IMG/VR virus record: IMGVR_UViG_3300030085_003871
Coordinates: 1 to 20,429 of that record
Strand: one strand, 5' to 3'
Origin: a virus
Length of the DNA stretch: 20,429 nucleotides
Part shown: in pieces, positions 3 to 13,972 of the stretch
Layout: every line of letters begins with the position of its first letter
How positions within the stretch are numbered: position 1 is the stretch's first letter
The notes under the pieces: model-generated
Database searches by the model: none
What the model saw: the letters and a program-made list of their open reading frames with translations, nothing else
What the model was told of the DNA's origin: nothing
Made by a program: the position numbers and the translations under genes

Positions 3-440
3 TATGATTACGCTCTTGATGGATTATTCGTAGGTGATATGCCTCAGACAGCTTATGTCTTAGGTACAACACTTACACCAATCAAAGGTCTTAGACTACA
101 AGGTATTTTCAAGATGTACGATAAGAACTACGCTGATTGGTCACCAGGCGCTCGTGAGTATGATGGTGATGATGCTAACGCTGACAGAGCACAAGTCTGG
201 CAAGCTCCAGGCTATAATCGTTTAGACCTACACGGTTCATACAAACTACCAAAGATTGGTGGTTATGATATAACCCTAACTGGTCACGTATTTAATGCTC
301 TTGATGCTTTATATGTACAAGATGCAGTTGATAACTCACCTTATAATAGTTTCGGTGATAAACTTCACCTACCACATAACGCTGAGGTATTCTTAGGAAC
401 ACCACGTTATGCTAACATAGGATTAGTTGTTAATTTCTAA
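3..440 (+). CDS. TonB-dependent receptor, C-terminal fragment (5' end outside window)
   Basis: The reading frame is open from base 3 and runs off the left edge, so the ATG at 39 is internal. The 145 visible residues look like the last beta-strands of an outer-membrane TonB-dependent receptor: alternating aromatic strands, a VFNALDALYV segment like the NVFN...Y motif near the end of these receptors, a FLGTPRYANIGL strand, and a terminal Phe, which serves as the barrel-assembly signal. Such receptors import siderophores, vitamin B12 or glycans across the outer membrane and often act as phage receptors. Proline codons are mostly CCA and the GC content looks higher than in the phage genes, where CCT dominates, suggesting a bacterial origin. 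It is followed directly by a strong terminator. Whether it is a phage-borne gene, a host flank or an assembly join cannot be told from the window. Family assignment fairly sure. Confidence 0.75.
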   Translation, partial: YDYALDGLFVGDMPQTAYVLGTTLTPIKGLRLQGIFKMYDKNYADWSPGAREYDGDDANADRAQVWQAPGYNRLDLHGSYKLPKIGGYDITLTGHVFNALDALYVQDAVDNSPYNSFGDKLHLPHNAEVFLGTPRYANIGLVVNF

Positions 441-3080: not shown

Positions 3081-3229
3081 TGAATGAAATAATACATTTT
3101 TTTAAACACGTGATAGGTTTCTGTGGTGAACACTCACATCCTAGTCTTTTACTTTCAGGAGGAGTATTTTTAACAGCTATGGGACTCTATTGGACAAAAT
3201 TTATTAACTTTTTCAAGGATATGTTTTAA
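3080..3229 (+). CDS. small membrane protein, holin-like in size
   Basis: 49 residues, coupled to the genes on both sides (TGATG at the start, TAATG at the end). An amphipathic N-terminus containing CGEHSHP is followed by one membrane segment (LLLSGGVFLTAMGLYW) and a short basic tail. Phage lysis regions contain such peptides, and a deformylase and a 3D-domain wall enzyme lie downstream. A holin role is possible but not demonstrated. Confidence 0.6.
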   Translation: MNEIIHFFKHVIGFCGEHSHPSLLLSGGVFLTAMGLYWTKFINFFKDMF

Positions 3230-3507
3230 TGGGATTTCAGGATAATTTATCGAAAAGAAACGGTAAATACACACTAAAATCTAAGACAGGTAAAGTCCGT
3301 AAAAAAGGAACTTGTGTTTCTTGTGGACAAAATGCATTAACTCGTGAGTTATTGTATGAATATAATACTGAAGATATGATTTTAGTTCGTCAATATATGG
3401 AGGACCATTTAACAACATATAGTAATCATCAAAGTATGAAACCTATTTGGTGTGATGAATGTAAAGCTCTAATCGAATATAAGAGTTCATTGAATGCAAG
3501 TAATTGA
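3229..3507 (+). CDS. zinc-ribbon protein
   Basis: 92 residues with a basic N-terminus ([20 protein letters not shown]) and a clear two-knuckle zinc site: C29-x2-C32 and C75-x2-C78. The knuckles flank a helical section. Proteins of this type bind DNA, RNA or polymerase, but no specific family is recognised. It starts in a TAATG overlap and overlaps the deformylase gene by 14 bases, so the two are probably translated together. Confidence 0.75.
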
Positions 3508-4078
3508 TTGTTTAAAAGAAAATAATCCATATATAAATCAAAAATTAAAAGAGGTAAGTGTAGATGAGGGATTATCTATAGCGAAAGATTTATTCAATGT
3601 CCTCAATAAACGACAAGACGGTATTGGTTTAGCAGCTAACCAGGTGGGTATTGATGCTAGTGTTGCTGTTGTTAATGTTCGTGAACCTATAATATTAATT
3701 AATCCTAAGATTGTAAAACAATGGGAACCTGTTCCTTATTTTGAGGGTTGTTTATCATTCAAAGGTAAAAGTGTTCAGACTCAAAGATATTCTAATATAG
3801 TTATTAAGACTGAACAAGAAGAAGCAGAATGGTATTTTAGTGGAGCTCCTAATCCTAGTGATGGTAAAGGTAGTTGGGAAAAACAGGAACAGAATAAACA
3901 CGACAAAGAATTAAGATTGTTAGAAACTATATGTGTACAACACGAAATAGACCATTTAAATGGAATGACAATCTCAGATAGACAAATAATAACTACAATC
4001 ACGAATGAAGTAAAGGTCGGTAGAAATGACCCGTGTGTTTGTGGTAGTGGCAAAAAATATAAAAAATGTTGTATGTAA
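3494..4078 (+). CDS. def: peptide deformylase with C-terminal SEC-C zinc motif
   Basis: Removes the formyl group from the N-terminal Met of new proteins at the ribosome exit. All three PDF motifs are intact: [10 protein letters not shown] (residues 43-52), EGCLS (84-88) and QHEIDHLNG (149-157), giving metal ligands C86, H150 and H154 and catalytic E151. An insertion of about 25 residues (about 114-138) interrupts the region between motifs 2 and 3. The last 18 residues form a SEC-C zinc motif (C181-x-C183...C192-C193), as found at the end of SecA, where it binds ribosomes and SecB. I infer it tethers the enzyme near the ribosome. Phage deformylases are known in cyanophages, where they are thought to help maturation of photosystem proteins; no photosynthesis genes are seen here. 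At 194 residues it is longer than E. coli PDF (169). Confidence 0.93.
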
Positions 4079-4090
4079 CTACTTAACTAT

Positions 4091-4267
4091 ATGAAAAGAT
4101 TTTTTAAAGCACTTGGTAAATTATTAGGATTGATATTTGTATCAATAGCTACATCATTTGTTTTAATTTTACTGCTACTTACTTTTATTGTGGCATTTTC
4201 AGTTGAGTTTTTAAGGGATTTTTGGAATGGATATACAAGAAATTTTAGAAAAATTAGAGGAAGCTAA
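4091..4267 (+). CDS. small membrane protein
   Basis: 58 residues: a basic N-terminus (MKRFFKALGK), a long hydrophobic span (residues about 11-37, LLGLIFVSIATSFVLILLLL then TFIVAFS) and a charged tail ending NFRKIRGS. Long enough for one span or a tight hairpin. It lies between the deformylase and the tmRNA and ahead of the 3D-domain wall enzyme, so a lysis function is possible. The next frame (4227) starts inside its 3' end. Confidence 0.6.
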   Translation: MKRFFKALGKLLGLIFVSIATSFVLILLLLTFIVAFSVEFLRDFWNGYTRNFRKIRGS

Positions 4268-4370
4268 AGAAGAAGAAAATTGGGATTTAGTTCAGGAAGT
4301 AATAGAAATTATGATTGAGATGAACATTGATAATCCCTTTGATGAGTATCAAGACGAAGATTGGGGCTGA
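4227..4370 (+). CDS. hypothetical acidic peptide whose stop lies inside the tmRNA
   Basis: A 47-residue, very acidic helical peptide (about a third Asp and Glu). AAGGGA at 4213-4218 is a good Shine-Dalgarno for the ATG at 4227. The frame overlaps the previous gene by 41 bases and its TGA stop (4368-4370) lies 6 bases into the tmRNA sequence. RNase P cleavage of the tmRNA 5' end would therefore remove the stop codon from this message. Either the gene is expressed only from unprocessed RNA, or it is not a gene. Confidence 0.5.
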   Translation: MDIQEILEKLEEAKEEENWDLVQEVIEIMIEMNIDNPFDEYQDEDWG

Positions 4371-4770
4371 CCAGGTTTCGACAGATGTTCTTTGACAATA
4401 GAGTGCAGCAGAGTATGAGTAAACTCTTTAATAAGACTCAACAAAACTCAAATGGCGATAAATCGCTACAAGGGTTAGTAATTGATTGGCATTTAGCTGA
4501 AAATGATGGTGATTGGAATAATCCTCCCATCTCAAATTACGAACCAACTTACGCATACGCTGCTTAAGTTACTGAGTTATCTAACACTCGGTCATAAAAT
4601 AAGTTAGATAAATGTCCTCAGTAGCTCTGGACGTTAAACAGCTACCAGTCGTCAATCTGTAAACTGACCATAGTGGGTTGTAGGTTACTACTGAATTTGG
4701 AACCTAACTAAGCTGTGAATGACTCTATCGATTAAACATTTGGACGTGGGTTCGATTCCCACCAGCTCCA
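4363..4770 (+). ncRNA. ssrA: transfer-messenger RNA (tmRNA)
   Basis: Rescues stalled ribosomes and tags the unfinished protein for proteolysis. The 5' end GGGGCTGACCAGGTTTCGAC and the 3' end (GTGGG-TTCGATT-CCCAC then CAGCTCCA) match bacterial tmRNA ends. They form an alanine acceptor with the G3:U70 pair. Helix H2 closes through AGATGTT (near 4382) with AACATTT (near 4734), and AGAGT with ACTCT. A 9-bp helix TTATCTAAC/GTTAGATAA follows the tag stop, as expected for a pseudoknot. The tag frame ends TAA at 4565-4567 and encodes ...NYEPTYAYAA, close to the usual YALAA ending. The resume codon is uncertain: GCT at 4496 gives 23 residues, ATT at 4481 gives 28. CCA is not encoded. 408 bases, complete. 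Confidence 0.95.
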
Positions 4771-4806
4771 CAATAAAAAAAATTACCATTTTGGGTAGTA
4801 ACTAGA

Positions 4807-4834: not shown

Positions 4835-5353
4835 ATGAATAAGAATACTATATTATTAGGAATAGCTATTGTATTGATAACATATGCTAATGGCATTGTA
4901 TCAACTAAATTTCTTAGCGATAAGAATATCCAACTGCAATCTCTGTTAGATGAAAATAAAAGACTAGCAGAAAAGTTGGATGAATATGAAACAGAAGGAA
5001 TGCACGTGACCGTAACTATGTATCATCCTGTTCGTGAACAAACGGATTCTACACCGAACATTCTCGCGGATGGAACGCGCATTAGAACTCAGGAAGCTTC
5101 TAACTACAAATTTATAGCGGTTAGTAGAAATCTGTTAAAACGATGGGGAGGTTGGTTAGATTACGGCGACTTTGTTTTATTAAAAGGAACTAAAGATAAA
5201 GATGGTGTGTACCAAGTACGTGATGCTATGAATGCTCGTTTCGTGAATCGAATCGATATTTTAGAATCACCAGGTACTAAACCTTATAAGTTTGAGACGG
5301 CTAAGATTACTCGTACGAACTTAACGTACACTGGTGCTGAAGGTACTAAATAA
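4835..5353 (+). CDS. membrane-anchored 3D-domain protein, probable cell-wall lytic enzyme
   Basis: 172 residues. An N-terminal membrane segment or signal anchor (residues about 5-23, TILLGIAIVLITYANGIV) is followed by a short coiled coil (27-52) and a 3D domain (about 58-145). That double-psi beta barrel is found at the end of MltA-type lytic transglycosylases and in RpfB/YocH-type wall enzymes. Typical elements are VTVTMYHP, NILADGT, YGDFVLLKG and the Asp-bearing VRDAMNARFVNRIDIL (D130, D141). Likely role: peptidoglycan cleavage from the periplasm, that is, an endolysin or lysis helper. The uncleaved N-terminal anchor resembles SAR endolysins. GAAAAGG at about 4823 is the ribosome site. No T4-type lysozyme is visible in the window. 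Confidence 0.8.
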   Translation: MNKNTILLGIAIVLITYANGIVSTKFLSDKNIQLQSLLDENKRLAEKLDEYETEGMHVTVTMYHPVREQTDSTPNILADGTRIRTQEASNYKFIAVSRNLLKRWGGWLDYGDFVLLKGTKDKDGVYQVRDAMNARFVNRIDILESPGTKPYKFETAKITRTNLTYTGAEGTK

Positions 5354-5426: not shown

Positions 5427-5870
5427 ATGAAATTCAAATCAACTAAACGATTTGGGCCTATCACTACAGGTCATCGTCAATGGAAAGACAAAGGTCATTG
5501 TTCTTTCGTTCACGGATATGGAAGATATGTAAGACTAACATTTGAAGCATCAGAACTTGATGAACGAGGTTGGGTTATGGACTTCGGTGATTTAAAAGAT
5601 GTTAAGAAGTGGATTGAATCAGAGTGGGACCATAGAGTATTGATAGCTGGTGATGACCCTCTTATTCCTAAATTAAAAGAATTAGAAAAAGTAGGTGGTA
5701 TAGATTTAAACATATTACCTGAAGGTTATTATCCTGGTATTGAAGAGTCCTGTCGTTATCTATATGACAAATTAAATCCAATGATAAAAGAAAAAACAAA
5801 CAATCGTGTTGAGATTACACGAGTAGAAGTTTGGGAACACGAAAACAATCACGCAGAATATGTCAGATAA
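5427..5870 (+). CDS. queD: 6-carboxytetrahydropterin synthase (QueD)
   Basis: Converts dihydroneopterin triphosphate, the FolE product, to 6-carboxytetrahydropterin, step 2 of 7-deazaguanine synthesis. The T-fold shows H16 (zinc), catalytic C25, H29 in HGY, the MDFGDLK strand (51-57), D68-H69 and E137 (VWEHENNHAEY), which match the QueD catalytic set. The usual HGH zinc motif reads HGY here, so the third zinc ligand is absent at its normal place. I recall HGY-type QueD variants in marine bacteria and phages, so this is probably a subfamily trait. At 147 residues it is longer than E. coli QueD (about 120). It is the first gene after P4, and its 3' end overlaps queE by 11 bases. Confidence 0.92.
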   Translation: MKFKSTKRFGPITTGHRQWKDKGHCSFVHGYGRYVRLTFEASELDERGWVMDFGDLKDVKKWIESEWDHRVLIAGDDPLIPKLKELEKVGGIDLNILPEGYYPGIEESCRYLYDKLNPMIKEKTNNRVEITRVEVWEHENNHAEYVR

Positions 5871-6606
5871 AAAATTACCAATAAATGAAATGTACACTTG
5901 TCTACAAGGTGAAGGTAAACTTCTAGGTATACCTCACATCCTGATTCGTGTAAGTGGTTGTAGATTACGTTGTCAGTTTGCTGACTCGTTTTGTGATACA
6001 CCATATAGTTCTTGGAAACCCGAGAAAGGTATTTTTACTTATCAAGATGTTCGAGAGTTTTATGAAAAAAATTCTCATATTCATCACACTATGATTACTG
6101 GTGGAGGTCCTACTTTGCATGCTAAAATGTTACAAGAGTTATGTAAGATAGGTAAAGAGTATTATCAAACCATCACAATAGAAACTGAAGGTAGTGAGTT
6201 TGTTTCTACTATGGCAGACTTAATTTCGTTATCTCCTAAGTTGTCAAATAGTACACCGAGACCTGGTACGATAATGTCTTATACAGGTAAAGTCGTTACT
6301 GAGGCTGATAAAAAGAAACACGAAAAGTGGCGTTGTAATTATGAAGCTATGTCTCAACTTATCGAGAATCATCCTGATTATCAACTCAAACCAGTTATCT
6401 CAAGTGAAGAAGATTTAGAAGAAGTAAAAGAGTTACAAAGAATACTAGGTGTCCCTAATCATATGGTTTATCTAATGCCTGAAGGTCTCGAACGAAATCA
6501 ACTAAATGAAAGACGAAAGTGGTTAACAGAACTTTGTGTACGTGAAGGTTACAACTTTACAGATAGATTACATATTATAACTTATGGAGATGAACGTGGG
6601 GTATGA
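5860..6606 (+). CDS. queE: 7-carboxy-7-deazaguanine synthase (QueE), radical SAM
   Basis: Rearranges 6-carboxytetrahydropterin to 7-carboxy-7-deazaguanine (CDG), using S-adenosylmethionine and a 4Fe-4S cluster. Near the start are the substrate motif YTCLQGEG (12-19) and the cluster cysteines C34, C38 and C45. The spacing is CX3C-X6-C, where classic radical SAM enzymes have CX3CX2C. The extra four residues (in QFADSF) precede the conserved CDTPYSSW. The SAM-binding GGEP motif reads GGGP (in MITGGGPTLH). 248 residues against 223 in E. coli. The spacing looks like an atypical QueE cluster loop, which the family is known to vary. No QueC follows. The gene overlaps queD and the following membrane gene. 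Confidence 0.93.
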   Translation: MSDKKLPINEMYTCLQGEGKLLGIPHILIRVSGCRLRCQFADSFCDTPYSSWKPEKGIFTYQDVREFYEKNSHIHHTMITGGGPTLHAKMLQELCKIGKEYYQTITIETEGSEFVSTMADLISLSPKLSNSTPRPGTIMSYTGKVVTEADKKKHEKWRCNYEAMSQLIENHPDYQLKPVISSEEDLEEVKELQRILGVPNHMVYLMPEGLERNQLNERRKWLTELCVREGYNFTDRLHIITYGDERGV

Positions 6607-6817
6607 TTGGATAGGTTGGATAGGAACTGCTGCTATCGTAGCCGGTTACTACTTCAATGCTAAAAAAATAAAGACTTGTTTTATTATTTGGGGATTAGGT
6701 AATGTTGCATTCTTGATATATGCTTATCTAATTGATGCACCTCCTCAAATAGCAATAAGTGCATTTGTAATTGGTATGAATATTTTTGGATATAAACAAT
6801 GGAGTAAAGATGAATAA
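6596..6817 (+). CDS. small three-span membrane protein in the deazaguanine operon
   Basis: 73 residues with three hydrophobic segments: DWIGWIGTAAIVAGYYF, FIIWGLGNVAFLIYAYL and IAISAFVIGMNIFGY, then a short KQWSKDE tail. The GTG at 6596 is chosen because GGAG (6586-6589) lies 6 bases upstream; in-frame ATGs at 6584 and 6590 are alternatives without a well-placed ribosome site. The Trp/Tyr/Asn-rich spans resemble half-length PnuC- or YgjV-like membrane proteins, but I cannot assign a family. Set between queE and folE, it could move a pterin, nucleobase or precursor across the inner membrane, which is inference. Confidence 0.75.
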   Translation: MGYDWIGWIGTAAIVAGYYFNAKKIKTCFIIWGLGNVAFLIYAYLIDAPPQIAISAFVIGMNIFGYKQWSKDE

Positions 6818-7442
6818 ACTAAAACACGCTAACGGAAATCATCCGTTGACTGAACAAGAAAAACTTAAAATGATTGAACAAGCTGCTAAACACTACGGTG
6901 ATTATATGACAGCTCTTGGATTTGATTGGAGTGAAGACCCTAACTCTTCTGAAACTCCTATCAGAGTAGCTAAAGCTTTTGTCAATGACTTGGCTTCAGG
7001 TGTGTATAGTGAACCTCCTAAGATTACAGCTTTCGATAACGTTGATGGATATGATGGTATGGTCTTTCAAGGTAACATAACATTACATTCATTTTGTTCA
7101 CATCATCATCTTCCCTTTATAGGACACGCTCACGTAGCGTATCTTCCTACTCCTGAGGGTAAAGTGATTGGACTAAGTAAGTTAAATCGTATTGTTGAGT
7201 TTTATGCTAGACGACCTCAAGTACAAGAAAACTTGACAATGCAAGTACACGACCACATCCACGATGTATGTGAAGAAAACATTGGTGTTGCTGTATCCGT
7301 TGAGGCAGACCATATGTGTGCTTGTGTTCGTGGTGTCAAACATAATTCTACTATGAAGACATCTAAGTTGAGTGGTGAGTTTATGAACTACAAAAGTAAT
7401 TCACGAGAAGAATTTTATAACTTTATAAGGGACTTGAAATGA
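6810..7442 (+). CDS. folE: GTP cyclohydrolase I (FolE)
   Basis: Opens the guanine ring of GTP to give dihydroneopterin triphosphate, the entry step of 7-deazaguanine synthesis. The start at 6810 has GGAG at 6801-6804 and overlaps the previous stop. In the 210-residue protein the zinc site is seen as C96 and H99 (SFCSHHHLPF) and C170 (DHMCACVRGV). The GTP-site segments GHAHVAYLP, GLSKLNRIVEFYARRPQVQE and VHDHIHD are intact. The length matches E. coli FolE (222). Phages that replace guanine in DNA often carry their own folE to raise pterin flux. Its TGA overlaps the next gene as ATGA. Confidence 0.97.
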   Translation: MNKLKHANGNHPLTEQEKLKMIEQAAKHYGDYMTALGFDWSEDPNSSETPIRVAKAFVNDLASGVYSEPPKITAFDNVDGYDGMVFQGNITLHSFCSHHHLPFIGHAHVAYLPTPEGKVIGLSKLNRIVEFYARRPQVQENLTMQVHDHIHDVCEENIGVAVSVEADHMCACVRGVKHNSTMKTSKLSGEFMNYKSNSREEFYNFIRDLK

Positions 7443-7828
7443 AAGAGTTTATAAGTTGGAATCTAATTGATGAAGCTGTTACTGATATAGCTTTTAATAT
7501 TAAAAACACAAATAAAGATTTCAAAGGTGTTTATGGTATACCTAGAGGTGGTTTGATATTGGCTGTAATGTTGAGTCATAAGTTAGATTTACCTTTGATA
7601 ATGTCTAAAGATGAGTTAGACGAAAATAGTATTATCATAGACGATATAGCAGATACTGGTAGAACATTATGGGATTTTCTCGAATATCAATCTTATGTTG
7701 TTACTATACACAAACACGAAAAAAGCATATTCAAACCTGATTATTCAGTTTTAGATAAAGGTGATAAGTGGATTGTCTATCCTTGGGAAACTGAAGACTC
7801 AGAAGAAATACAGGATTACTTAAAATGA
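7439..7828 (+). CDS. phosphoribosyltransferase (Gpt-like, type I)
   Basis: 129 residues with a type I PRTase core. The PRPP-binding loop IIIDDIADTGRT spans residues 65-76, and an upstream GVYGIPRGGLILA strand-loop (30-42) provides the PPi-binding loop. The C-terminal hood ends KWIVYPWETED, as in xanthine-guanine PRTases (WVVYPWE). It is shorter than E. coli Gpt (152). The expected reaction is a purine base plus PRPP giving the nucleotide. In this operon it may salvage the guanine that DpdA releases, or act on a deazaguanine base. Both ideas are inference. ATGA overlaps on both sides show tight coupling to folE and the T-fold gene. Confidence 0.85.
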   Translation: MKEFISWNLIDEAVTDIAFNIKNTNKDFKGVYGIPRGGLILAVMLSHKLDLPLIMSKDELDENSIIIDDIADTGRTLWDFLEYQSYVVTIHKHEKSIFKPDYSVLDKGDKWIVYPWETEDSEEIQDYLK

Positions 7829-8172
7829 AAACAAATATAATATGTAGATTACAAGTTGAAGGACTACATTGGTGGTCTGAAGCTAGTAAGTATGAACCCA
7901 CAATGGTGTATCTTGAATCACCACATAGGCATATGTTTCACATTGAAGTCAAAAAAGAAGTTTTTCACGATGACCGAGATGTTGAGTTTATTGTGTTTAA
8001 AAGAAAAGTTAAAAAGTATTTAGAAGAAAAATATTATGATGAACAATATGATTTGTGTAACTTCAAAGCAAGGTCTTGTGAAATGTTAGCTAAAGAATTA
8101 CTCGAAGAATTTGATTTAGTGTATTGTTCAGTATTCGAAGATAACGAGAATGGAGCAGAAATATATGGGTAA
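7825..8172 (+). CDS. QueD-like T-fold paralogue lacking catalytic residues
   Basis: 115 residues with the T-fold layout of QueD/6-pyruvoyl-tetrahydropterin synthase. It has the zinc histidines H15 (in GLHWW) and H34-x-H36 (SPHRHMFHIEV), a middle DVEFIVFKRKVKKYLEE strand-helix, SCEMLAKELLEEF in place of the usual TxExLA helix, and an acid near the end (VFEDNENGAEI, E105). The Cys normally four residues before HxH is absent, and the DH pair reads DLCN. It should bind zinc and perhaps a pterin-like or deazaguanine ligand, but not act as ordinary QueD. From memory, a QueD paralogue has been proposed to decarboxylate CDG in phages that make 7-deazaguanine DNA (DpdL); this could be that protein. 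It sits between the PRTase and the glycosyltransferase, with overlaps. Confidence 0.75.
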   Translation: MKTNIICRLQVEGLHWWSEASKYEPTMVYLESPHRHMFHIEVKKEVFHDDRDVEFIVFKRKVKKYLEEKYYDEQYDLCNFKARSCEMLAKELLEEFDLVYCSVFEDNENGAEIYG

Positions 8173-9145
8173 AATAATTTACTTACCTCTTGAACATATT
8201 GAGTCAAGATACACAACTCATATGGACAGAGATATATCAAACTATCTTGATAACTTAGATAGAGAATGTATCAAAGTTTATCCTGATATTCCCGTTCCTA
8301 CAAGTATGAAAGCAGGAAGTTTTCTTGATGCTGAGTTTACAATCAGATTCAAAGCAGCTCAGATTGAAGAAGTGGCTAGATTATATCGGGAAGATGTAAT
8401 TGACTCAGGTGATATTATTTGGAGTTCTGATTTATGGCATCCAGGACTTCCCGAAAGTATAGCTTATATGAATTACTTTGCTAAGAAAGATGTAAAGTTA
8501 AGAGGACTTATTCACGCGGGTAGTTTTACTGATACTGATTTCGTGAGAGATATGGAACGATGGGCTAAAAACTTTGAAGATACTTTGTTTGATATTGCTG
8601 ATGAAATTTATTGTGGTAGTGATTTTATAAAAAATGATATTATAAAAAAACGAATGATAAATCCTGACAAGTTAGTTGTAACTGGATTTCCTTTAGATAC
8701 AGAAAATCTTGATAAAGTTGAAAAGAAACCTAAAGAAGATATAGTAGTATTTTCAGGTAGAAACGTAGATGAAAAACAACCTTGGTTATTTAAACAAATG
8801 GAAGATAGATTAGGTGATGTTATAGGTAGTACTCAGTTCATCAATACTCTTGAACATAACTTTTCAAAAGATGAGTATTATGATTTGTTGAGTAGAGCTA
8901 AAGTTGTAGTAAGTTTTGCTTTACAAGAAAACTTTGGATTCAGTATTGCCGAAGCTGTTTATCTAGGTTGTGTTCCTGTTGTTCCTAACAGATTGGTTTA
9001 TCCTGAGTTTTATAGTGAACAATATTTGTATGATACTTTTGATACTGCTTGTAATAAAGTTAATATGGCTCTGAAAGGTAACTTATTACCTCCATTACAC
9101 GGTAGAGATTATCAAGAAGCTATGGAAAGGTGGTTCCGTGATTAA
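8165..9145 (+). CDS. GT-B glycosyltransferase in the DNA-modification operon
   Basis: 326 residues. Start 8165 is chosen (GGAG at 8152-8155); an in-frame ATG at 8150 is also possible. The C-terminal half is a GT-B nucleotide-sugar domain: VVTGFPLDTENL, IVVFSGRNVDEKQPWLF, a SRAKVVVSFALQ strand, then the EX7E motif ENFGFSIAE and LGCVPVVPNRLVYPE, typical of retaining GT4 enzymes. The N-terminal half (YLPLEHIESRYT, WHPGLPESI, GLIHAGSFTDTDF) resembles phage glycosyltransferases I recall near modification genes. The acceptor is unknown. Its place between the T-fold gene and dpdA, overlapping both, suggests it could glycosylate the modified base, as T4 enzymes do for hydroxymethylcytosine. A surface or capsid target is the alternative. 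Confidence 0.85.
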   Translation: MGKIIYLPLEHIESRYTTHMDRDISNYLDNLDRECIKVYPDIPVPTSMKAGSFLDAEFTIRFKAAQIEEVARLYREDVIDSGDIIWSSDLWHPGLPESIAYMNYFAKKDVKLRGLIHAGSFTDTDFVRDMERWAKNFEDTLFDIADEIYCGSDFIKNDIIKKRMINPDKLVVTGFPLDTENLDKVEKKPKEDIVVFSGRNVDEKQPWLFKQMEDRLGDVIGSTQFINTLEHNFSKDEYYDLLSRAKVVVSFALQENFGFSIAEAVYLGCVPVVPNRLVYPEFYSEQYLYDTFDTACNKVNMALKGNLLPPLHGRDYQEAMERWFRD

Positions 9146-10340
9146 AACTAATTTTATTTATTTTCCTTCATTCTCAGCAGGTGAGATGGGTTCTAACTTT
9201 GTAAAAGACCATCGTTTTAGAAATGATATGACGATACGATTTTATAGTGAAGAATATCCTGAAGAGTTTCAACACAATCAATTATTGATTACAGCTGGAG
9301 CGCATATGTCAGTAAAAGATTACAGAAACAAAATGGGACTTACTGATAGAAATCTTGTTATGGGTGATTCAGGAGGATTTCAGTTCGCTTCTGGAGCTCT
9401 CAAATGGGACTTAAAATACAGAGATAAAATCTTTAACTGGTTATCAGAAAATACTGATGTGGCTATGAACTTAGATTTACCTCCTCGTTTGAAGAATGAA
9501 GGTAAGTTTCACGAATGTTTAGATGTTAGTATTGACAATTTTAAATACTTTCAATCAAAACAAGATGGTTCTACAAAGTTCTTAAACGTAGTACAAGGTG
9601 ATGACGAACATACTTACAAACACTGGTACGACCAAGTCAAAGATTTTGATTTCAATGGTTGGGGTATCGGAGGTGCTGGTGGTAGTCTTTATCGTTTTAT
9701 GTCAGGTGTCCATGCTCTATTACAAGGTAAAGAACACTTGAATCCTCGTAATGAATACTTTCACATTCTTGGTACTTCTAAAATCAGAGACTTCTTGATG
9801 TTAATTCAATTACAGAAATCACTTGAGGATATTGGTTCCAATATTGTTGTAACGACTGATAGTTCGTCTCCTGACAGAGCTGTCGTTTTTGGTACATATT
9901 ACACACGATTTAGTATAAAGAAAGCCACATTTGAATCAATCAACTTTCCAAGTGAAAAACATAATCCTGACATTATAGAGTGGTTTAGAGAAACACCTAA
10001 TCAAGATTGGCCTCGTATGACTGCTTTTGATGATGTACTTAGAGGACTTGTTTCTTGGAAAGATGTAGCTGACTGGAACACTCAATGTACTATGGGAATG
10101 AGATTACATAACTTCTATGTGTTTAAAGATGCTATCAGAAATGTAACTGAACTAATTTATGGACACGATTATATATTGAAACAAGCAGTAGATAGTGAAG
10201 TATATAAAGTATTGAGGTCCATTGATGATATGGTCAAGAGTGAAGACCCCTCAAGAGTATTCGAATCATATAAACAACTTTATATGAAAATGAGTAATAC
10301 TAAAAAACAACCTACAAATTCAACACACAATTTCTTTTAA
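9138..10340 (+). CDS. dpdA: DNA-guanine transglycosylase (DpdA), TGT-like
   Basis: Swaps guanine in phage DNA for a 7-deazaguanine base, making the DNA resistant to many host restriction enzymes. It is a relative of tRNA-guanine transglycosylase. MGDSGGFQFASG (75-86, base D77), NLDLPPR (111-117), VVQGDD (151-156), GWGIGGAGG (174-182) and the probable nucleophile strand TTDSSSPDR (239-247, D241) match the TGT active-site order. The CxC...CxxC...H zinc site of bacterial TGT is not evident in the C-terminal third, consistent with phage DpdA proteins. The start is GTG at 9138 with GGAAAGG 7 bases upstream. 400 residues. It closes the operon that begins with queD and overlaps the glycosyltransferase. 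Confidence 0.93.
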   Translation: MIKTNFIYFPSFSAGEMGSNFVKDHRFRNDMTIRFYSEEYPEEFQHNQLLITAGAHMSVKDYRNKMGLTDRNLVMGDSGGFQFASGALKWDLKYRDKIFNWLSENTDVAMNLDLPPRLKNEGKFHECLDVSIDNFKYFQSKQDGSTKFLNVVQGDDEHTYKHWYDQVKDFDFNGWGIGGAGGSLYRFMSGVHALLQGKEHLNPRNEYFHILGTSKIRDFLMLIQLQKSLEDIGSNIVVTTDSSSPDRAVVFGTYYTRFSIKKATFESINFPSEKHNPDIIEWFRETPNQDWPRMTAFDDVLRGLVSWKDVADWNTQCTMGMRLHNFYVFKDAIRNVTELIYGHDYILKQAVDSEVYKVLRSIDDMVKSEDPSRVFESYKQLYMKMSNTKKQPTNSTHNFF

Positions 10341-12154: not shown

Positions 12155-12247
12155 GGCGACGATTGAGTAGCTGGTGCTCTCCTCGGTCTTCAACACCGTA
12201 GTGTAGTAGTTGATACTACAGGTAGGTTCGATTCCTATCCGTCGCCG
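12155..12247 (+). tRNA. selC: probable tRNA-Sec (anticodon TCA), long variable arm
   Basis: 93 bases. The acceptor GGCGACG (12155-12161) pairs with CGTCGCC (12240-12246). The anticodon loop CTTCAAC (12188-12194) gives TCA at 12190-12192, reading UGA. A long variable arm has a 7-bp stem TGTAGTA/TACTACA and loop GTTGA. The D arm is long with a tiny loop (GAGTA-GCTGG-TGCTC). The T stem extends to 6 bp around TTCGATT, so acceptor plus T arm reach about 13 bp, as in tRNA-Sec. Discriminator G12247 fits Sec or Ser; the following CTA is one base from CCA. The anticodon stem has 4 pairs plus a T-T mismatch. The alternative is an opal suppressor Ser/Leu tRNA. No other selenocysteine gene is in the window. 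Confidence 0.8.
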
Positions 12248-12268
12248 CTAACATAATGAAAGGTTTTA

Positions 12269-13972
12269 GTGTTATCGAATAGTGATTTAAAAATAAGTCT
12301 ATTAGATAAAAAATACTCTAAGGATATTAAGACGCTTATCCGAAGATTTCGCCGTGCCTATCCAACAGATATAAATTACATACGAAGACTTGATAAAGAA
12401 TATAAAATAATTGAAGAAAAGGGTTTCATAAATACGTTTCATAGAGTATGTGATTTATTAGATATTATCAAAGATAAAAACATTCCTCACGTATTACGAG
12501 GTTCAGCCGCTTCATCTCTCGTGTGTTATCAACTCGGTATTAGTGATATAAATCCCATCAAAGAAAAAATACCTTTAACACGTTTTATGAATTTTTGTCG
12601 TGATACTCAACCTGACATTGACTTAGATGTACCTCATTGGACACGTGATGGATTGATTGATGAGTTTCACGAGAAACATCCTGGTAAAGTAGCTCGTATC
12701 AGTAATAAAGTTATGTACAAACCTAAAAGTGCTATGAGAGAAGCTATCAGAAAGTTTGGGCATAGAAAGTTTTTACCTAGAAACTACAAGTTAGACAAAA
12801 TATTTCCTGACCCTATTGTACGAAGAGATGTAAAAACTTATGCTAAATCATTGATGGGAAAACAAAGACAATGGTCATTACATTGTGGAGGTCTCATAGT
12901 ATTTAATGATAAAGTACCAGAAGACTTATGGTTAAAAGAAGAGAAAAAACAAATCATATTAGACAAGTATGATGTTGAGGAACAAAACTTAATCAAAATA
13001 GATTTATTGTGTAACAGAGGTCTTTCTCAGTTGTGGGAGTTATCTGATAAACCGATAGCCGACTACGACCCATTTGACAAACAGGCATCAGAGTTGTTAT
13101 GTAGAGGTGAAGTATTAGGTCTAACTCAGAGTGAAAGTAGAACTATGAGAAAATGTATTTTAGCTCTACAACCTAAATCTGTATATGATGTAGCTCTTGC
13201 TCTAGCTCTGATACGACCAGCAGCTGCTGATGGAGGTCGTAAGGCTGCTTTCTTACGAAAAGAAAAAAACAGAAGACACATAATTACAGACGAAGATGCT
13301 ATCGAATACATATCAGATAGTGTTGATTGTTCACTTGATAAAGCTGATTATTACAGAAGAGGATTTAGTAAACAGATTCCTAACGTGATAAGTGAATTTA
13401 TGGCTCAACTACAAAATCAAAAAGGTTCAGTTGAGAAAGCAAATATATTAAAAGAGTTACGACACTCACCTAAGTATAGTTATTGTAGAGGACACGCCTT
13501 AGCTTACGGACAATTAGTATGGGCATTAGCTTACTGGAAGTCGAGAGAACCTCAAAGATTTTGGGAAGCTACTCTTACACATTGTCATTCAAGTTATAGA
13601 AAATGGGTACATCCTCGTCAGAATATTCTTGCGGGTAATTATCTATATAACAAAGTACAAGGTACACCTATGCAACAATTTGAAAAAACAGGATGGTGGA
13701 ACTCACCTGACTTTCTTTCAAAAGATTTTGGTTGTGAAGATTCTCAAGGTGTAACTTACTTCTCAGGTTTAGTAGCAAACACAAGAACAATATACCGATA
13801 TAAAAAGAAATTAGTTTTGATGAGTATAGGAGTTGACAATAATAAATTTGAAGATTTGATTATTGACAAAAGTATATTCAGAGGAGGAAAACAATGGACA
13901 TTTGTAGAGGGTTGTGGACTACGAAAACCTCAATTCAATTCTGATTACATAGAAGTCTCACATTTACTATAA
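12269..13972 (+). CDS. DnaE-type DNA polymerase III alpha core, PHP-less
   Basis: 567 residues against about 1160 in E. coli DnaE. The family C palm and fingers are clear: HVLRGSAASSLVCYQLGISD (74-93), the metal-binding PDIDLD (115-120), KVARISNKVMYKPKSAMREA (140-159), WSLHCGGLIVF (202-212), the third acid in IKIDLL (D245), and GLTQSESRTMRKCI with ALALIRPA near 284-315. All three catalytic acids are present, so it may be active. The N-terminal PHP domain and the C-terminal OB-fold and tau-binding regions are missing, so the protein is a stripped catalytic core. It could be a second polymerase beside a family B enzyme elsewhere, or a regulator. GTG start with AAAGG at 12259-12263. It follows the tRNA-Sec and ends before a terminator. 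Confidence 0.9.
   Translation: MLSNSDLKISLLDKKYSKDIKTLIRRFRRAYPTDINYIRRLDKEYKIIEEKGFINTFHRVCDLLDIIKDKNIPHVLRGSAASSLVCYQLGISDINPIKEKIPLTRFMNFCRDTQPDIDLDVPHWTRDGLIDEFHEKHPGKVARISNKVMYKPKSAMREAIRKFGHRKFLPRNYKLDKIFPDPIVRRDVKTYAKSLMGKQRQWSLHCGGLIVFNDKVPEDLWLKEEKKQIILDKYDVEEQNLIKIDLLCNRGLSQLWELSDKPIADYDPFDKQASELLCRGEVLGLTQSESRTMRKCILALQPKSVYDVALALALIRPAAADGGRKAAFLRKEKNRRHIITDEDAIEYISDSVDCSLDKADYYRRGFSKQIPNVISEFMAQLQNQKGSVEKANILKELRHSPKYSYCRGHALAYGQLVWALAYWKSREPQRFWEATLTHCHSSYRKWVHPRQNILAGNYLYNKVQGTPMQQFEKTGWWNSPDFLSKDFGCEDSQGVTYFSGLVANTRTIYRYKKKLVLMSIGVDNNKFEDLIIDKSIFRGGKQWTFVEGCGLRKPQFNSDYIEVSHLL

Follow-up and report, generated by a model that had tools for sequence, protein, structure and literature searches.

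A phage-encoded one-piece tmRNA with a 37-residue tag, conserved in a lineage of marine myoviruses

We found that a 20.4-kb IMG/VR virus record (hereafter the window; 20,429 nucleotides) carries a one-piece tmRNA gene whose tag is 37 residues long, GDKSLQGLVIDWHLAENDGDWNNPPISNYEPTYAYAA. The explanation that best fits the evidence, and that we hold to be probable, is that this tmRNA is a conserved, phage-owned one-piece gene of a marine myovirus lineage and that its selected tag, with an adaptor-docking front and a host-type degron end, would place ribosome rescue under a phage tag. It is known that tmRNAs occur in about 2% of phage genomes, among them some marine T4-like phages whose tmRNA is two-piece, and the two-piece tmRNA of OM43 and SAR11 phages is thought to serve during infection (PMC9004378). 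Searches of open-licence literature gave no report of a Marinimicrobia virus tmRNA or of this tag.

Results

ARAGORN called a one-piece tmRNA at positions 4363-4771 of the plus strand, and Rfam model RF00023 matched 4363-4773 over 374 of its 374 positions (score 109.8 bits, cut-off 47, E value 1.7e-42). The covariance search thus bears out the initial annotation, which had reported a complete tmRNA in a phage, and the 3' end that it gave, 4770, is the discriminator base, preceded by the 3' strand of the acceptor stem (Table 1). A two-piece (permuted) tmRNA was rejected because the gene order is not permuted and ARAGORN's call is of the one-piece type. CAA directly follows the discriminator; the gene therefore does not encode the 3' CCA, which must be added.

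Table 1. Coordinates of the tmRNA gene, its parts and its neighbours in the window
Feature	Position	Strand	Evidence or remark
TonB-dependent receptor, C terminus	3-440	+	at window start
47-aa ORF	4227-4370	+	stop codon inside tmRNA 5' end, overlap 4363-4370
One-piece tmRNA (ssrA)	4363-4770	+	discriminator A is last base; next bases CAA
Acceptor stem H1, 5' strand, with G3-U70	4363-4369	+	pairs with 4763-4769; compensatory changes at neighbouring pairs
H2 long stem, 5' strands	4383-4409	+	4383-4389, 4398-4404, 4405-4409; covariation
PK1	4410-4440	+	4410-4414 with 4423-4427, 4416-4420 with 4436-4440; window sequence; indels in relatives
Frame-setting context	4450-4453	+	A at -4 (4450) and T at -1 (4453) of resume codon
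Tag reading frame, 37 codons	4454-4564	+	resume codon GGC 4454-4456; stop-free, periodic, pN/pS
Front module GDxSLxGLxIDWHLA, 15 codons	4454-4498	+	missed by ARAGORN; pN/pS (see text)
Variable linker	4499-4540	+	tag alignment
C-terminal degron-like module EPTYAYAA	4541-4564	+	last 8 codons pN/pS 0.28; off-frames 5.45 and 2.89
Tag stop TAA	4565-4567	+	TAA in 75/80 and TAG in 5/80 distinct sequences
PK2	4571-4609	+	4571-4577 with 4586-4592, 4579-4585 with 4603-4609; 100% and 98.1% of cells paired
PK3 (4613-4645) and PK4 (4646-4680)	4613-4680	+	drawn in window; alignment loose here
Extra hairpin, interval between PK4 and H2	4681-4706	+	75% of aligned cells paired; suggestive only
H2 long stem, 3' strands	4712-4741	+	4712-4716, 4722-4728, 4735-4741; covariation
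T stem-loop	4746-4762	+	stem 4746-4750 with 4758-4762; 100% paired, compensatory changes in 5/5 pairs
Acceptor stem H1, 3' strand	4763-4769	+	covariation
172-aa protein of unknown function, phrog_21574	4835-5353	+	often directly downstream of tmRNA

To collect related viral contigs, we searched with the baseplate wedge protein, peptide deformylase, QueE and the 172-aa protein encoded downstream; a DNA pattern search for the tmRNA gave 104 matching stretches, part of which the set already contained. A profile search located the tmRNA in 165 loci (several overlapping), which yielded 80 distinct full-length sequences, all from related marine phage contigs, and RF00023 scored above its cut-off in 22 of 30 related records. 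When 67 representatives were aligned, their mean identity was 65% and the minimum 52%. Two cultivated relatives found by the baseplate protein, Microcystis phage Mel-JY01 and Flavobacterium phage immuto, had no tmRNA in the stretches examined. One relative, L086 (tmRNA at 3229-3660), has an insert of about 13 nt immediately past the tag stop codon.

We used the 67-sequence alignment to examine the fold. Across the eight helices tested, 95.0% of cells were paired, versus 34.8 to 43.1% in slid controls whose partners were shifted by 1 to 3 columns. Both sides had changed in 31 pairs (18.0 +/- 1.7 in shuffles), and doubly changed cells numbered 298 against 72.9 in shuffles. The third acceptor pair, the alanine identity pair G3-U70, was GU in all 66 readable sequences. 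Covariation backs the acceptor stem with G3-U70, the T stem, H2 and PK2, the last with compensatory changes in both of its stems, so that the tRNA-like ends and H2 pairing first noticed in the window alone hold across the family. As judged by these aligned sequences, the acceptor/tRNA-like domain with G3-U70, H2 and PK2 has been maintained through compensatory change. The window sequence is compatible with PK1, PK3 and PK4, which fall in loosely aligned, indel-bearing regions in the relatives. At the PK3 and PK4 blocks, the tmRNAs look mosaic in the family alignment, as if modules recombine. The extra hairpin that follows PK4 is tentative.

The tag opens with a conserved front of 15 residues, continues with a variable linker and closes with an end that resembles a degron. 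Relatives' tags are 34 to 42 residues long, and none of the 70 distinct tags has an internal stop; eight front residues (S4, L5, G7, L8, D11, W12, H13 and A15) are invariant in the alignment of all 70. The pN/pS of the linker plus the end is 0.37, with 1.22 and 1.48 in the off-frames, and over the tag as a whole it is about 0.3 to 0.4, with about 0.85 to 5 in the off-frames. Together with the ratios for the end (Table 1) and the front (below), these values indicate that the whole peptide, beyond its degron end, is under purifying selection at the amino acid level. An AlphaFold2 model of the tag had no assigned secondary structure and low confidence, as expected for a peptide tag. The front module had no credible match in Pfam, the PDB or 50,697 phage records, its DNA pattern found nothing credible in 32 host-side genomes, and no tag-like motif occurred in viral frames away from the tag position.

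As first noted, the tag ends in YAYAA. The consensus of the family's tag ends is [QE]P[TS]YAYA(A), with the variants -HVYA, -YANA, -YASA and -YAYTA, and 62 of the 63 distinct C termini have a terminal Ala preceded by Ala or by Tyr, Phe, Asn, Ser or Thr; these 62 thus have the small or hydrophobic C terminus and final Ala of an ssrA degron. The initial annotation had raised the possibility that altered tagging lets phage products escape host proteases, and the same might apply to any tagged protein. Tag length, the linker and the first three of the variant ends, which are unlike the commonest host tag, would fit such a role. However, the near-universal terminal Ala and the small or hydrophobic ends speak against it, the tag end is under purifying selection, and the ends are nothing like the stabilising charged ends of laboratory use. 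Moreover, -AYA also ends two tags of the Marinimicrobia, the likely host (see below), namely ADYGQFAYA and ANYGQVAYA. We therefore consider protease escape unlikely; an Ala-ended tail, in part the same as in host tags, points to degradation instead.

Where the tag starts determines its length. ARAGORN places the first codon at GAA 4499, which would make a tag of 22 residues, whereas comparative evidence gives GGC 4454, 45 nt upstream, as the putative resume codon of a 37-residue tag, on the basis of codon-periodic variation, the distribution of stops, the A(-4) frame ruler and the position at nt 92. The earlier reading of at least 23 residues was thus correct as a lower bound and underestimated the tag. 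In the 15-codon block that separates the two starts, pN/pS is 0.28 for the tag frame, compared with 1.56 and 1.00 for the other two, and the tag frame is without stops in 76 of 76 sequences, while the other frames bear stops in 75 and 72. In the eight codons ahead of GGC, variability at the three codon positions is 0.38/0.46/0.34; starting with GGC it is 0.10/0.05/0.28, which is a sharp boundary of codon periodicity. A single candidate start has both A(-4) and T(-1) in 80 of 80 distinct sequences, and it lies 10 or 11 codons ahead of the invariant Asp-Trp-His. The resume codon of E. coli tmRNA is found 11 to 12 nt past PK1, four nt away from A86, and the A86G exchange causes strong impairment (PMC2481249); we assign A(-4) its role here because of that ruler (PMC2481249). 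The GGC start is 13 nt past PK1 and the GAA start 58 nt. Counted along the RNA, GGC begins at nt 92 and GAA at nt 137, and tag starts in the host and other phage tmRNAs fall at nt 84 to 96, except in Calle_1 (nt 113).

If the tag were instead the 22 residues from GAA 4499, the conserved upstream block would be a noncoding RNA element. ARAGORN does score that start, 67 of 80 sequences have an A at -4 in its context (UAGCU/GAA) too, and a predicted stem-loop covers part of the block. Codons 1 to 8 lie within this stem-loop, where base pairing adds to nucleotide conservation, but codons 9 to 15 lie outside it and have the same codon pattern. The sites that vary in the block are synonymous third codon positions, with paired changes in Leu codons (CTA/TTA/TTG) among them, and 3-nt insertions in 4 sequences preserve the frame. 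The remaining 13 of the 80 sequences have G, not A, at -4 of GAA, a change with a strong deleterious effect in E. coli (PMC2481249), and the spacing from PK1 and the periodicity boundary at GGC likewise disagree with a GAA start. We dropped the 22-residue tag, which is very unlikely, in favour of the 37-residue tag on the evidence of frame, stops, periodicity and position. That the frame encodes a small independent protein without trans-translation is extremely unlikely, since, although it is strongly conserved and long for a tag, it has no in-frame ATG, its sole common in-frame TTG (codon 8) sits within the conserved block, and it begins at the expected tmRNA tag position with the A(-4) spacing present.

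The window starts within a TonB-dependent receptor gene, and related phage records (L239, L240 and L241) contain full-length TonB receptors of 905 and 972 residues; an outer-membrane transporter on a tailed phage is unusual. Among 84,980 bacterial and archaeal species genomes, receptor homologues were almost all from Marinimicrobia and mostly 55 to 68% identical. Two high-scoring matches had other labels, L243 (a Flavobacteriales MAG, NAT55, the top match) and L291 (Euryarchaeota SP3014). Both turned out to be phage-like contigs that belong to this virus group; they are probably misbinned. This distribution makes Marinimicrobia (SAR406), uncultured bacteria of the ocean, the likely host, an assignment based chiefly on genes for receptors, and such genes are able to pass from one lineage to another.

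Marinimicrobia tmRNAs resemble the phage RNA, as do bacterial one-piece tmRNAs (RF00023) at large, in the tRNA-like domain, G3-U70, H2, pseudoknots, a tag start near nt 92, an Ala-ended tag and a CCA that is mostly not encoded. They differ in length (about 350 nt versus about 410 nt), have almost no similarity to it beyond the tRNA-like 3' end and lack the front module. The Marinimicrobia tags examined have 8 to 10 residues, the commonest being ADYGYMAAA; others, besides the two -AYA tags above, are GEYSYAAAA and GESNYALAA. The phage tag is about four times as long and very different in sequence, and it is conserved across many related viral contigs, which agrees with its first description as long and unusual. 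Two MAGs have second tmRNAs with the tags DESVHMLQAA (L335, G039:C208) and ADTSVLALAA (L334, G031:C23), either second copies or bin contamination.

Phages and mobile elements often use ssrA as an integration site, and the initial annotation had named identity with the host tmRNA as the sign of a recent pickup or a misassembled, chimeric contig. Host tmRNAs have the short tags given above and aligned to the phage profile at the 3' end only, with at most 27 bits, and the gene is present in many independent contigs with shared neighbours, so that pickup and misassembly have a negligible probability and were ruled out.

Homologues of the 47-aa ORF lie upstream of the tmRNA in L086 and L135. The 172-aa protein was present in 60 of 89 testable loci (those fetched by the tmRNA pattern only), about 50 of them with it immediately downstream; an obligate linkage to the tmRNA was rejected, the association being frequent and not universal. 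A peptide deformylase whose C terminus bears a SEC-C metal-binding motif (3494-4078, plus strand) is usually near the tmRNA in relatives. Further along the plus strand lies a queuosine-type gene set (5427-10340) with a QueD-like PTPS, a QueE-like radical SAM protein, GTP cyclohydrolase I and a weak match to TGT; this set suggests that the phage's DNA or tRNA is modified with 7-deazaguanine. A tRNA-Sec with anticodon UCA (12155-12248, plus strand; Rfam 65.4 bits, cut-off 47) occurs also in the related phages L004, L086, L109, L128 and L382 and scores above the cut-off in most Marinimicrobia genomes tested, to whose versions the phage one is 61 to 71% identical. The 567-aa DNA polymerase III alpha-like protein (12269-13972, plus strand), in which the NTPase and finger domains were the only ones matched, is possibly a split polymerase.

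Discussion

The structure, identity pair, frame and selection described above are shown by the comparison of sequences, and from them we infer the following course of events. The RNA would be processed and given its CCA by host enzymes, charged with alanine by the host alanyl-tRNA synthetase and bound by SmpB of the host, since no viral SmpB was found in 30 related records, which are mostly fragments. Charged tmRNA would then enter stalled ribosomes and add Ala plus the 37-residue tag to the unfinished product. The C-terminal module may act as a host-type degron for ClpXP-like proteolysis, and the conserved front module may be a second signal, a docking site for a phage or host adaptor that steers tagged proteins. 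The phage would thus keep ribosome recycling going under its own tag while mRNAs are being cleaved or broken down in the infected cell, and ribosome rescue during infection is a reasonable expectation.

The tag of E. coli tmRNA has an adaptor site at its front. Reading the conservation of the phage front module by analogy with that site, we favour an adaptor-docking signal as its most likely role. More tentatively, the tag could be a two-signal system in which the host-type degron end is combined with a 15-residue docking module read by an adaptor of the phage's choosing, a possibility to which we give somewhat less than even weight. If it is true, proteins from broken messages in infected cells would be routed under viral control.

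Phage tmRNAs with long tags of 22 to 26 residues are already known. Bxz1-like and Wildcat-like mycobacteriophages and Cellulophaga phage Calle_1 also encode one-piece tmRNAs above the Rfam cut-off, and their tags have 22 (EniyanLRS), 22 (Calle_1), 25 (Kashi_SSH1), 25 (Tonenili) and 26 (Phabba) residues. Those tags are shorter and unrelated, end in -LV, -VAA or -GV, and have no comparable two-module layout that we could see. OM43 and SAR11 phages such as Melnitz are likewise marine phages with a tmRNA of their own, T4-like, but theirs is two-piece permuted and tied to a glutamine riboswitch, while the tmRNA of the window is one-piece (PMC9004378). No riboswitch was among the Rfam matches in the window. 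The length of the tag and its conserved front module appear to be new when set against these five phage tags, a smaller set than the complete tmRNA Website list.

The starts of long tags can escape standard annotation. Four unrelated types of phage tmRNA that we examined already have tags of 22 to 26 residues, and it would be worth rechecking the tag lengths of other phages by comparison. With 80 distinct versions whose whole tag is visibly selected and unlike that of the likely host, the question of why phages carry a tmRNA becomes testable, in the form of what reads the front module and what becomes of the tagged proteins.
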